DNA from: Nevskia sp.
GTDB lineage: Bacteria; Pseudomonadota; Gammaproteobacteria; Nevskiales; Nevskiaceae
Reading direction: 5' to 3'
Length of the DNA: 63,103 nt
Assembly (NCBI GenBank): GCA_019689635.1
Contig: JADGHB010000015.1
Span: 1 to 63,103, forward strand
Shown here piece by piece: positions 36,615 to 44,554 of the stretch. The notes under the pieces were generated by a model. The model saw only the letters and a program-made list of their open reading frames with translations. It searched no databases and was not told the DNA's origin. The translations under genes and the position numbers were made by a program. Positions within the stretch are counted from its first letter, which is position 1. Every line of letters starts with the position of its first letter.

Positions 36615-37034
36615 TCAGCGTTCGCCGTAGAGCGTGAGCACGACTTCGCGGCGGTGCTCGCCGTGGCGGTGCTCCCAGACGTAAATCCCCTGCCAGGTGC
36701 CGAGCAGCAGTCGCCCCTCGCCCACCGGCACGCTGAGCTGATAACCGGCCAGCAGGTTGCGCACGTGCGCGGGCATGTCGTCGGGGCCTTCGCTGCGGTG
36801 GACGAACAGCGGATCGCCATCGGGCGCCACGCGGCAGGCGAAGCGCTCCAGGTCCGCGCGCACCTGCGGGTCGGCATTTTCCGTGATGCACAGGCTGGCG
36901 CTGGTGTGGCGCAGGAACAAATGGCACAGACCGAGGCGCAAGCCCGCGGCGCGCACCCGCTGCGCGACCTCGGCGGTGATTTCCCGAAAGCCGCGCCCCT
37001 GGGTGGCGACGGTCAGCGTCGTTTGCGACCACAT
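36615..37034 (-). CDS. yjbQ: YjbQ/UPF0047 family protein
   Basis: A 139-residue protein of the UPF0047 family. The conserved blocks are GFREITAEV, CHLFLRHTSASLCITENADPQV, HRSEGPDDMPAHVRN and GTWQGIYVWEHR. Members were reported to have weak thiamin-phosphate synthase activity; the true role is unsettled. It is the last gene in line behind the hyf-like cluster, 34 bases after hyfI, and could be co-transcribed with it. Confidence 0.92.
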   Translation of the reverse strand: MWSQTTLTVATQGRGFREITAEVAQRVRAAGLRLGLCHLFLRHTSASLCITENADPQVRADLERFACRVAPDGDPLFVHRSEGPDDMPAHVRNLLAGYQLSVPVGEGRLLLGTWQGIYVWEHRHGEHRREVVLTLYGER

Positions 37035-37068
37035 GGCAGCGTGTAACGGTGCGGCCGGGATCCTGCGC

Positions 37069-37590
37069 TCAGCCGCCGGTGTCCGCCGCCGCGCTCACCA
37101 GCGTGAGGATGCCGCGCAGCAAAGCCAGCGGTTCGGGCGGACAGCCGGGCACCTGGACATCGACCGGAATGACGCGGGCCACCGGTCCGCGGCTCGCATA
37201 ACTCTCGCCGAAGATGCCGCCGTTACAGCCGCAGTCGCCGGCCGCGATCACCCATTTCGGCTCCGGCATTGCCTCGTAAGTACGCTTGAGAGCGATTTCC
37301 ATGTGGCGGCTGACCGGACCGGTGACCAGCAGCAGGTCGGCGTGTCTCGGGCTGGCGACGAACTTGATGCCCAGCCCTTCGAGATTGTAATAGGGATTGT
37401 TGAGCGCGTGGATCTCCAGCTCGCAGCCGTTGCAGGAGCCGGCGTCCACCTGGCGGATGGCGAGCGCGCGGCCGAAGACGCGCGCGATCTCTTTGCGCAG
37501 CGCCTGGGCCAGTCGCAACGCCGGGTCCGGCGCCGGCGGCGCTTCGCTCACCACGCCGACGCGCCCGATCTGCATCAGAGTCTTCAGCAT
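37069..37590 (-). CDS. hyfI: NuoB/HyfI-like iron-sulfur small subunit
   Basis: A 173-residue electron-transfer subunit homologous to NuoB and HycG/HyfI. Ligands for a proximal [4Fe-4S] cluster (N2 equivalent) are present: Cys53 and Cys56 in GSCNGCELE, Cys120 (or Cys122) in AAGDCGCNGG, and Cys150 in VPGCPP. So the small subunit can still carry an electron even though the large subunit has lost its Ni-Fe ligands. It begins 7 bases after hyfG. No ferredoxin-type HyfA or HyfH gene is present in the cluster, so the way electrons reach this cluster is unclear. Confidence 0.88.
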   Translation of the reverse strand: MLKTLMQIGRVGVVSEAPPAPDPALRLAQALRKEIARVFGRALAIRQVDAGSCNGCELEIHALNNPYYNLEGLGIKFVASPRHADLLLVTGPVSRHMEIALKRTYEAMPEPKWVIAAGDCGCNGGIFGESYASRGPVARVIPVDVQVPGCPPEPLALLRGILTLVSAAADTGG

Positions 37591-37597
37591 GGCGCGC

Positions 37598-39136
37598 TCA
37601 CCGATCGTGTCCGCTGTAGGACAGGTTGAAGGATTTGTTGATCAGCGGGAAGTCGGGGACGATGTTGCCGATCACCGCGTATTCCAGCGCCGGCCAGTTC
37701 TGCCAGGAGGGATCGTGCGGATGGCAGCGCCGGATGCGTCCGTCGGGACCGGCTTCCAGCGCCACCAGCACCGGGCCGCGCCAGCCTTCCACCGCGCCGC
37801 AGCCCGGCCGGTCGGTCGCCGCCGGCGGCAGCTCCGCGCGCACCGCGCCGTCGGGCAGGTGCTCGAGGATGGCGCGGCACAGCCGCAGCGATTCGAAGAG
37901 CTCGTCGAAACGCACCGCCACGCGCGCCGCCACGTCGCCGCCAAGGTGCGTGATCCGGTTCACCGCCAGTCGGTCGTAAGGCGCGCAGGGAAAATCGCAG
38001 CGCAAATCGCGCGTCTGGCCGCTGGCGCGCGCGGCCAGCCCCACCAGGCCCAGGCGCACGGCCAGCTCCGGGCTGATGCGGCCACAGCCGGTGAAGCGGT
38101 CCTGCAAACCGCCGTGGTCGTCGTAGATGGCGCGCAGGCGGCGGGCCTCGTCCTGCAAGGGCAGCAGCTGCGTCCACAGCGTCTGCCACTGCGCCTCGTC
38201 GAGATCGCGCGCCACGCCGCCGGGAACGATGTAGTCGAAGGGATAACGCGCGCCGAAGGCCGCATGGTTGGCGCGCAGCACCTGTTCCTTGAGGCGCGAG
38301 AACTGGGCCAGGCCGAAGGCGAAACCGGCGTCGTTGCCCAGCGCGCCGAGATCGCCGAGGTGGTTGGCGATGCGCTCGCGCTCCACAAGCAGCGCGCGCA
38401 ACCAGAGCGCGCGCGGCGGCGGAGCGACTCTGCACAGACTCTCCAGCGCCATGCAGTAGGCCCAAGCGTAGGCCGCGGCGGAGTCGCCCGAGACGCGCGC
38501 CGCCAGGCGCGCGCCCTCGGTCAGCGACAGCGACTCGAAACGCTTTTCGATGCCCTTGTGCGTGTAGCCGAGCCGCTCCTCCAGCCGCAGCACTTTCTCG
38601 CCCACCACCGAGAAGCGGAAATGTCCCGGCTCGATGATGCCCGCGTGCACCGGACCGACCGGAATTTCGTGCACGCCGTCGCCGGCCACCGCGACGAAAT
38701 CGTAAACCTCGGGCTGCGGTTCACGCGGCGCGGGCGCCGGCGCGTCGCGGCGCAGCGGAAACCAGTCCGCCGGCCAGGCCGCGTGGCGCAGCCAGGGCCG
38801 CGGATCTCCGCCGAGCGCGCGCACCCCGGTGAGATCGGAAGCCGCCCGTTGCATGCGCGCGGCGGCGGGAAACAGATCGGAGAGATCGGGGTACTCCGGC
38901 GCGCTTTCGGCCAGCGCCACACGCGCCACCTGCAAGCCCCGATCGTCGAGGAAGGCGAGATGGAGGCGGAAACCGCCGACGCGGTCGCGTTCGTCACTCG
39001 CCCATAACGCCATCAGCGACGCGCCCTCGGCCCGCCGCCGTTCGCAGAAGGCGCGCAGTTCGCCCGCTTCGAGGTCGGTCAGCCCTGCCGGCACGGCGCC
39101 GGGCAGGGGACTGAAGCGGGCGGCGGAAGAAACCAT
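37598..39136 (-). CDS. hyfG: HyfG/NuoCD-like large subunit lacking the Ni-Fe cysteines
   Basis: A 512-residue protein, with a NuoC-like N-terminal domain (residues about 25-100) fused to a NuoD/hydrogenase large-subunit domain (GPVHAGIIEPGHFRF onward, with GYTHKGIEKRFE). In true group 4 hydrogenases the first Ni ligands are C-x-x-C in a R-I-C-G-I-C-G motif; here it reads RVSGDSA, Ser216 and Ser219. The second pair, D-P-C-x-x-C near the end, is NLSYSGHDR, Ser506 and Gly509. All four ligands are gone, so it cannot hold a Ni-Fe centre. It is thus an Ehr-like or complex-I-like subunit, not a hydrogenase. Confidence 0.9.
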   Translation of the reverse strand: MVSSAARFSPLPGAVPAGLTDLEAGELRAFCERRRAEGASLMALWASDERDRVGGFRLHLAFLDDRGLQVARVALAESAPEYPDLSDLFPAAARMQRAASDLTGVRALGGDPRPWLRHAAWPADWFPLRRDAPAPAPREPQPEVYDFVAVAGDGVHEIPVGPVHAGIIEPGHFRFSVVGEKVLRLEERLGYTHKGIEKRFESLSLTEGARLAARVSGDSAAAYAWAYCMALESLCRVAPPPRALWLRALLVERERIANHLGDLGALGNDAGFAFGLAQFSRLKEQVLRANHAAFGARYPFDYIVPGGVARDLDEAQWQTLWTQLLPLQDEARRLRAIYDDHGGLQDRFTGCGRISPELAVRLGLVGLAARASGQTRDLRCDFPCAPYDRLAVNRITHLGGDVAARVAVRFDELFESLRLCRAILEHLPDGAVRAELPPAATDRPGCGAVEGWRGPVLVALEAGPDGRIRRCHPHDPSWQNWPALEYAVIGNIVPDFPLINKSFNLSYSGHDR

Positions 39137-44234: not shown

Positions 44235-44258
44235 GGCCCGGCGGCCCTTGAGCGTCGT

Positions 44259-44277
44259 ATGTTAATGGTATTAACAT
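44259..44277. promoter_or_regulatory. Perfect palindrome, probable operator between hyfB and the RHH regulator
   Basis: atgttaat (44259-44266), ggt, attaacat (44270-44277). The arms are exact inverted repeats and AT-rich in a GC-rich setting. On the minus strand a TTGCAC box and a TAACAT box at 18-base spacing overlap it, so a bound repressor would block hyfB. The divergent RHH gene starts 35 bases away. Confidence 0.7.
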
Positions 44278-44311
44278 CAGGTGTGCAACCGATGCGAACC
44301 GCAAACCGCTC

Positions 44312-44554
44312 ATGACGCCGGAACACCGCACCGCCCGGCTGACGATCTTGATCGACCCGCGCAAGAAGGCGGTCTTCGAGGAGCTGTGCGCGCGCGAAGA
44401 CCAGACGCCCTCGCAAGTCGTCCGCCAGCTGATCCGCAGCCACATCGAACAGCGCCTGGGTCATCCCTGGAAACCGGGCCGCACCGTGGAGGAGACGCTG
44501 CGCCAGAACTTCGGCTCCGAGCCGCAGCGCAAGCACCCTAAGCGGTCGGCCTAG
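44312..44554 (+). CDS. Ribbon-helix-helix (CopG/Arc-like) DNA-binding protein
   Basis: An 80-residue protein. The ribbon strand is TARLTILIDPRKKAVFEELC, followed by helix-turn-helix residues EDQTPSQVVRQLIRSHIEQRL, the CopG/Arc-type fold. The C-terminal 28 residues are basic and Gln-rich. It diverges from hyfB over a perfect palindrome, so it is the likely regulator of the hyf-like cluster and perhaps of itself. No toxin gene follows, which argues against an antitoxin role. No ribosome site is obvious. Confidence 0.8.
   Translation: MTPEHRTARLTILIDPRKKAVFEELCAREDQTPSQVVRQLIRSHIEQRLGHPWKPGRTVEETLRQNFGSEPQRKHPKRSA

Follow-up and report, generated by a model that had tools for sequence, protein, structure and literature searches.

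A type I energy-converting hydrogenase-related complex in Nevskia sp. with a conserved pocket at the position of the lost Ni-Fe site

We analysed a 63,103-nucleotide stretch of DNA from Nevskia sp. (Gammaproteobacteria; Nevskiaceae; GenBank assembly GCA_019689635.1, contig JADGHB010000015.1, positions 1 to 63,103), hereafter the window, which holds an intact hyfB-C-E-F-G-I block on the minus strand (37069-44234). The original prediction took these six genes to be complete and in order, and this is borne out by six intact open reading frames (ORFs) and by the recurrence of their order in distant proteobacteria. The first gene, hyfB (42204-44234, minus strand), encodes an antiporter-like membrane subunit of the NuoL/M type (PRK06521, 879 bits, cut-off 667) and has TTG as its start codon, with an alternative ATG possible at 44174. 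It is followed on the same strand by hyfC (41263-42207; a NuoH/HycD-like membrane anchor with E-channel, weak NuoH match), hyfE (40595-41260; a small membrane subunit, PRK11492 at 94 bits, under the cut-off of 136) and hyfF (39143-40594; a second antiporter-like subunit, PRK06458.1-5 at 841 bits, cut-off 543). The large subunit gene, hyfG (37598-39136, minus), encodes a 512-residue protein with NuoC- and NuoD-type Pfam domains and without Ni-Fe cysteines. Last, hyfI (37069-37590, minus) encodes an Oxidored_q6 protein with one proximal-type [4Fe-4S] motif (C53, C56, C120, C150) and no ferredoxin domain.

The cluster is almost certainly an energy-converting hydrogenase-related (Ehr) complex, of a proteobacterial kind that we call type I (our own label for the window-type HyfB-C-E-F-G-I complex). 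The definition of Ehr, a possible formate link and a suspected redox-coupled ion transport are from PMC6349859. Three features of Ehr are found here: homology to group 4 [NiFe] hydrogenases and to complex I, Mrp antiporter-like membrane subunits (HyfB and HyfF both carry a Proton_antipo_M domain), and a large subunit without Ni/Fe-binding residues. When HyfG was aligned with Escherichia coli HycE (7z0s_E, E 2.1e-62), S216, S219, S506 and G509 were placed on the four Ni-Fe cysteines, as had been read from the sequence before, and the two Cys-x-x-Cys motifs of group 4 (Hyd-3/Hyd-4) enzymes are absent. The first motif is replaced by S216-G217-D218-S219 (codons at 38480..38491, minus strand), and the canopy Asp and the second motif by N504-D511 (codons at 37604..37627, minus strand). 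E. coli formate hydrogenlyase (FHL) and hydrogenase-4 (HycE, HyfG) are the closest systems, with the nearest solved structure by sequence and fold and with related membrane subunits; the predicted HyfG fold matched 7z0s_E best (template modelling score 0.87/0.83), at a mean predicted local distance difference test (pLDDT) value of 83.6. Unlike the window protein, however, E. coli HycE and HyfG have the four cysteines and extend into a C-terminal tail, whereas our HyfG stops at D511-R512, level with the end of NuoD. This tail of the hydrogenase large subunit has a role in maturation. The E. coli hyf operon, unlike the window cluster, also has hyfA, hyfD and hyfH.

Trees of the large subunit agree with the Ehr assignment that had been proposed. 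With the motif columns hidden and five more four-cysteine hydrogenases added (seven in total), the window type (21 rows) and the seven hydrogenases each formed a clade of their own at 100/99, and the two Ni-Fe-less types were joined at 83/81. The unmasked tree returned the window type at 100/100 (41 rows). HyfG therefore falls outside the seven four-cysteine hydrogenases, all of which are of the HycE/HyfG kind, with Ech, Mbh, Coo and published Ehr sequences left out; long branches meet in both trees, which makes it uncertain where the hydrogenases stand with respect to the outgroup. We also observed a third large-subunit type in genomes of the class (L152-L161), which groups with NuoD in the tree. 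Of its 10 members, 8 retain the canopy Asp and two Ni-Fe cysteines, those at 216 and 506, and L152 and L157 keep no Ni-Fe cysteine. The MBS complex of Pyrococcus furiosus likewise keeps one cysteine per pair, a likeness to this third type by description alone.

Pocket conservation was assessed in 163 rows (162 distinct, as the window was entered twice, via L179). These rows were preselected as window type, leaving out type II, type III, NuoD and four-cysteine hydrogenase loci, and the invariance therefore describes type I, not all Ehr. At the four sites once occupied by cysteines, 152 of the 162 scorable rows have none, the other 10 have one, and no row has all four (0/162). A sequencing error as the cause of the cysteine loss is ruled out by the conservation of the replacements across many genomes: S216 is kept in 152/163 rows, G217 in 160/163, D218 in 163/163 and S219 in 138/163, and towards the C-terminus K501, N504, Y507 and D511 are kept in 162/162, S506 in 146/162 and G509 in 159/162. 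Positions 218, 501 and 504 are I, G and D in E. coli HycE and HyfG, are L, A or G, and D in two NuoD, and differ again in the second Ni-Fe-less type, and Y507 is a Tyr in E. coli HycE and HyfG too. In this comparison, made in a single alignment, D218, K501 and N504 mark type I, and Y507 is common to it and Hyd-3/4.

In the FHL structure, E193, R478, S283, H284, E437 and R395 of HycE are proton-route residues (PMC9474812). Their counterparts in HyfG are E169 (163/163), which also aligns with MbhL E21, R453 (162/162), N258 (157/163), H259 (163/163), E412 (163/163) and R370 (153/163, with K in the remainder). Judged from the alignment, the pocket is one that retains the proton route and has lost the Ni-Fe and quinone ligands, with new invariant residues close by. 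We infer the positions of its side chains from this mapping, and residues 508-512 are of low confidence in the model. Codon positions 1 and 2 are more conserved than position 3 when compared with two relatives from the genus.

The other subunits were compared with 86 (HyfB), 90 (HyfC), 94 (HyfE), 96 (HyfF) and 85 (HyfI) relatives. For HyfI, the original prediction listed C53, C56, "C120 or C122" and C150 as cluster ligands. C53 and C56 (85/85) and C150 (84/85) stand, and the third ligand is settled as C120 (85/85), which aligns with HycG C115, C122 not being among the columns kept at >=90%. HyfI has a Cys-x-x-Cys motif in place of the tandem cysteines that are a complex I feature of the N2 subunit, NuoB (PMC7684303). 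The ion-channel residues said to be kept are indeed conserved among the relatives: E155 (85/86) and K235 (86/86) of HyfB, E134 and K224 of HyfF (96/96), and K72, E182 and D188 (94/94) of HyfE. To these can be added E163 of HyfE (93/94), and E419 and C578 of HyfB (86/86), the latter aligned with HycC C537, the ND3-loop cysteine. The E-channel glutamates of HyfC are likewise kept (E141, E192, E206, E212 and E217 in 90/90, E133 in 87/90), with the exception of HycD E201, which is H204 in 90/90 relatives. As far as residue conservation can tell, the membrane arm and E-channel support a role in ion movement.

The six genes recur as a unit. Beside hyfG, the subunits were found in most of 85 loci (HyfB 80, HyfC 76, HyfE 77, HyfF 82, HyfI 80), which comprise 83 of type I and the own-genome stretches L013 and L016 (L014 and L018 are the same locus), some contigs ending inside the cluster. 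Among 20 distant loci of the class, hyfB-C-E-F-G were ordered in 20/20 and HyfI was found in 18/20; of the two remaining, L140 stops inside the cluster and L147 yielded no match to HyfI. Another 20 loci from a sample of the phylum had the identical gene set and order, contig ends cutting L206 (no hyfI) and L216 (no hyfB). The absence of a ferredoxin subunit, also claimed before, is consistent with 43 type I loci, some of them truncated where the contig stops, in which no listed gene was labelled HyfA-, HyfH- or NuoI-like; the only four-cysteine ferredoxin-type motifs listed there belong to the rnf genes of L224.

Scanning with HyfG recovered at least 572 relatives among the 593 pattern matches listed, and the best 80, which were kept, were 54-71% identical. 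Within the genus, the cluster was found in 3 of 18 genomes. In a class sample of 370 genomes, 63 had a match at 1e-30 and 52 were of window type (best E <1e-90), these carriers being assigned from the match table with the motif checked in 29 of the matches and in the window. One genome among these, G303, was scored as a non-carrier, its 50% match being short and located at a contig end. In the phylum sample (249 genomes), 64 had a HycE match at 1e-40, and the best 30 loci included 5 with all four cysteines and 25 of window type (window included). HyfG matches at 1e-40 were also found in 61 plasmid records, with all six genes in the 4/4 fetched, and sequences from metagenome-assembled genomes (MAGs) labelled Acidobacteriota nest within proteobacterial HyfG. 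The patchy spread, the plasmid copies and the MAG nesting suggest horizontal transfer; mis-binning can mimic such nesting.

The genome (98.5% complete) gave no match to HypD, with the E. coli control positive, in line with the reported lack of a maturation gene; the other hyp genes were not searched. Because HypD is missing at this completeness, the genome is very probably unable to make a Ni-Fe centre. HyfH-like sequences in the genome were NuoI, a fused copy on contig C93 and part of a molybdopterin enzyme (MopB), HyfA not having been searched genome-wide. Contig C75 of this genome encodes a canonical complex I large subunit. A NuoF-like protein was found in 51 of the 52 carriers, a query that can also match soluble formate dehydrogenase subunits, and the six-gene complex therefore appears to add to complex I, not to replace it. 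A second Ni-Fe-less cluster of this genome lies on contig C93 (L013, 6136-13501, stretch 50001-70000), with the motifs RVSGVDS and SFGLTVAGCDR. Both clusters lack the Ni-Fe cysteines, and their HyfG proteins are 36% identical; unlike the window cluster, the C93 cluster has the order C-E-F-G-I-B, a HyfI fused to a NuoI-like domain, and no D218, K501, N504 or Y507. Large subunits related to the C93 type were seen in L162-L170. The genome also has RuBisCO-family matches, genes on C51 for an NAD-linked formate dehydrogenase (899 bits for alpha against a cut-off of 666, 238 bits for gamma against 198) and, on C53, nirB beside a molybdopterin enzyme whose nitrate reductase matches are under the cut-offs; NifH was absent at the threshold used.

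Taken together, type I is probably a proton-coupled oxidoreductase that is fed directly at HyfI and whose acceptor is perhaps a quinone. The most economical reading is that ferredoxin, flavodoxin or a soluble dehydrogenase, as soluble carrier, would donate electrons directly to the HyfI cluster, and that they would then reach an acceptor located where the Ni-Fe pocket has been emptied, near D218, K501, N504 and Y507. Protons would travel via the retained E169 and the R453/N258/H259/E412/R370 route, and the HyfC E-channel would link the reaction, running either way, to the movement of ions by HyfB, HyfF and HyfE. Direct entry at HyfI is proposed because the usual ferredoxin subunit is missing, which is the sole ground for it. 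A quinone bound in a way other than that of complex I would be the most likely acceptor, another small molecule being nearly as likely. As a whole, from a soluble donor at HyfI through the HyfG pocket and HyfC to HyfB, HyfE and HyfF, this mechanism remains tentative, and on the sequence evidence we would put it somewhat below an even chance.

Several points weigh against this mechanism. The canopy Asp, strictly conserved as D529 of HycE and of a kind whose mutation impairs quinone reduction in complex I (PMC9474812), is replaced by Asn504. The quinone-headgroup residues of complex I, H38 and Y87 of Thermus Nqo4 (PMC7684303), correspond to I168 (163/163) and G217 (160/163), so that the residues do not support the quinone link of the original prediction; a quinone bound in a different manner may still be compatible with the HyfG pocket. 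Residues 145-193 of HyfG, which hold the beta1-beta2 loop, have pLDDT <50 in the model. With a single cluster and no ferredoxin subunit, the route of electron entry is conjecture, and both donor and acceptor of type I are putative. Co-occurrence does not help: carriage was not associated with RuBisCO (28/52 carriers vs 158/318 others, p 0.65) or with HypD (24/52 vs 128/318, p 0.45, at 1e-30). NifH was more frequent among carriers of the class sample (16/52 vs 19/318, p 1.4e-6, kinship ignored), but not in a second sample from other classes (6/23 vs 17/57, p 0.79). For the latter, 23 genomes were chosen from 47 HycE-matching genomes outside the class, mainly by dropping one large family, with the window type assumed for three of them (G445, G452 and G483, the last with NifH), and the 57 controls had no HycE match at 1e-40 and may include some carriers. 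A family-level NifH test rests on an estimated 165 families and is not relied on, and the NifH association is not used as support.

Other explanations of the same residues and genes need to be considered. It is possible, if rather doubtful, that the complex I superfamily has gained, in the emptied pocket, a third sort of active site, distinct from the Ni-Fe site, the complex-I-type quinone site and the MBS-type cluster; it would be built from D218/K501/N504 with the retained Y507/E169/R453, be fed by a single cluster without a ferredoxin subunit, have its own substrate and occur in a sizeable share of proteobacteria. That the pocket, altered at D218, K501 and N504 but with Y507 retained, takes a non-quinone substrate, as a new active site of the superfamily, is fairly unlikely in our view. 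D218, K501 and N504 are invariant in type I while the Ni-Fe and quinone ligands are lost, and they differ from E. coli HycE/HyfG and the two NuoD, which is what such a site would lead one to expect; yet Y507 is not novel, since E. coli HycE and HyfG have it as well, and the neighbouring genes suggest no substrate, the SulP and SthA-like genes being scattered. A formate-linked function, with a formate dehydrogenase feeding HyfI as proposed for other Ehr, seems to us quite unlikely. An FDH-Ehr (FDH, formate dehydrogenase) has been proposed (PMC6349859), formate was also put forward in PMC7735108, Geobacter Ehr subunits rise on formate (PMC7894505), and the genome encodes the NAD-linked enzyme on C51. 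That enzyme, however, has a NuoE/NuoF-like NAD module of its own and is encoded away from the cluster, and no formate dehydrogenase was found among the ten neighbours scanned or among those with an annotation, most neighbours being unnamed.

We consider it very unlikely that the complex is a non-redox device for ion transport or pH, with HyfG and HyfI merely structural: the antiporter residues are kept and no electron partner was found, but the conservation of four cluster cysteines and an invariant pocket would then be needless. MBS resembles type I in its ion-pumping arm and in being without a full Ni-Fe site and quinone residues (PMC7684303), and the proximal cluster itself might by analogy be the catalyst. 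We regard this as highly improbable, given that MBS has a shortened loop and an open proximal cluster held by three cysteines, a ferredoxin-like subunit, an MbsL with 2/4 cysteines and no equivalent of MbhL E21 (PMC7684303), whereas HyfI keeps four conserved ligands in Cys-x-x-Cys form and E169 is invariant. That the complex is a genuine hydrogenase, either with a different metal site or in decay, is scarcely credible. One cysteine is kept in 10 of 162 rows, but all four are kept in none, the C-terminal tail is missing, HypD is absent here and from 28 of the 52 carriers (at 1e-30), the tree separates HyfG from the seven hydrogenases, and the first two codon positions are the more conserved ones.

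Type I belongs to the known Ehr kind, and what is new here is the pocket description and a corrected gene list, together with a gene order that recurs in distant proteobacteria with no ferredoxin subunit or constant partner observed. Clusters of the hyfBCEFGI type are described for Cupriavidus metallidurans CH34 (Rmet_4666-4671) and C. eutrophus H16 (H16_A2196-A2201), where they are said to resemble an incomplete operon and to be unlikely to serve lithotrophy (PMC2864759). CH34 has the same six genes, with a HyfG 61% identical to that of the window; H16 has the same gene set by description, its sequence not having been compared. The same gene set is reported for Acidithiobacillus ferrooxidans, likened here by description, where the catalytic subunit was classed as non-hydrogenase by HydDB and was undetected in the H2 proteome (PMC7735108), and for Nitrospira (PMC5596200) and Desulfobacterium (PMC2702500). 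The Ehr of comammox Nitrospira (PMC10284858) and Sulfobacillus (PMC4378227) are reported to be without Ni-Fe motifs and to have no known function, and that of Geobacter, with subunits more abundant on formate, is described there as Ech-related and never investigated (PMC7894505); these three are hydrogenase-like as is the window cluster, a likeness by description, not by sequence. Our searches of open-licence papers, supplements aside, turned up no mention of the D218/K501/N504 set, nor of a demonstrated reaction for the six-gene type.

No reaction is demonstrated for Ehr or hyfBCEFGI in the papers cited, and with 52 of 370 class genomes carrying type I this is a common energy-converting complex. 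Six genes that stay together, a few invariant pocket residues and a carrier in culture that is open to genetics, Cupriavidus H16, make the question testable. Database labels such as 'hydrogenase 4' or 'formate hydrogenlyase' for these proteins may mislead metabolic models.

Outside the block, a ribbon-helix-helix (RHH) regulator gene (44312-44554, plus strand; RHH_9, 76 bits) is divergent from hyfB, and yjbQ (36615-37034, minus strand; TIGR00149, 126 bits) is a neighbour outside the conserved unit. A dedicated regulator had been predicted, and this holds in kind: among 148 loci the gene upstream of hyfB was RHH in 22, XRE-cupin in 18 and short XRE in 16 (XRE types 34/148), with neighbours matched at 1e-10, a threshold at which short regulators may be missed. 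The prediction that the cluster ends with yjbQ fails, as yjbQ was matched in 1 of 148 loci, the window itself, and is rejected as a chance neighbour. Regulators were the widely recurring gene types when a partner was sought in the neighbourhood (85, 20 distant and 20 more loci; 148 in total). A partner beyond the cluster is likely; no neighbouring gene identifies one. Both metG and apbC (18 and 16 of the 85 loci) were considered and set aside, as they look like one betaproteobacterial chromosomal site, where a third gene, in 10 loci, obtained no name. SulP (10/148) and SthA-like (6/148, one 28% identical) genes are scattered, rnf genes come after the cluster in 1/148, and none was taken as partner.

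Some arrangements were observed in individual loci. In L067, L068, L071, L072, L076, L144 and L221, hyfB is immediately preceded on its own strand by a SulP-family anion transporter gene, and this arrangement occurs in more than one lineage. In L224 (3456-18853), hyfBCEFGI is followed after 5 bases by a Si-specific NAD(P)+ transhydrogenase (SthA family) gene and then by an rnf operon; an SthA neighbour was further seen in L233, L059, L089 and L054. An extra antiporter-like gene (692 aa) overlaps the hyfB start in L225 (2033-4111), possibly a seven-gene variant. L241, L242 and L244, where the XRE gene is about 2 kb further upstream than usual, are possibly the same variant. Elsewhere in the window, the ORF at 1106-4315 has a molybdopterin oxidoreductase in its C-terminal part and adjoins a metallo-beta-lactamase-fold gene (3358-4326), which its N-terminal part seems to overlap out of frame. 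Positions 8065-13539 encode a very large hybrid protein that is CheA-like, combines Hpt, HATPase, CheW and response regulator domains and resembles type IV pilus chemosensory kinases.

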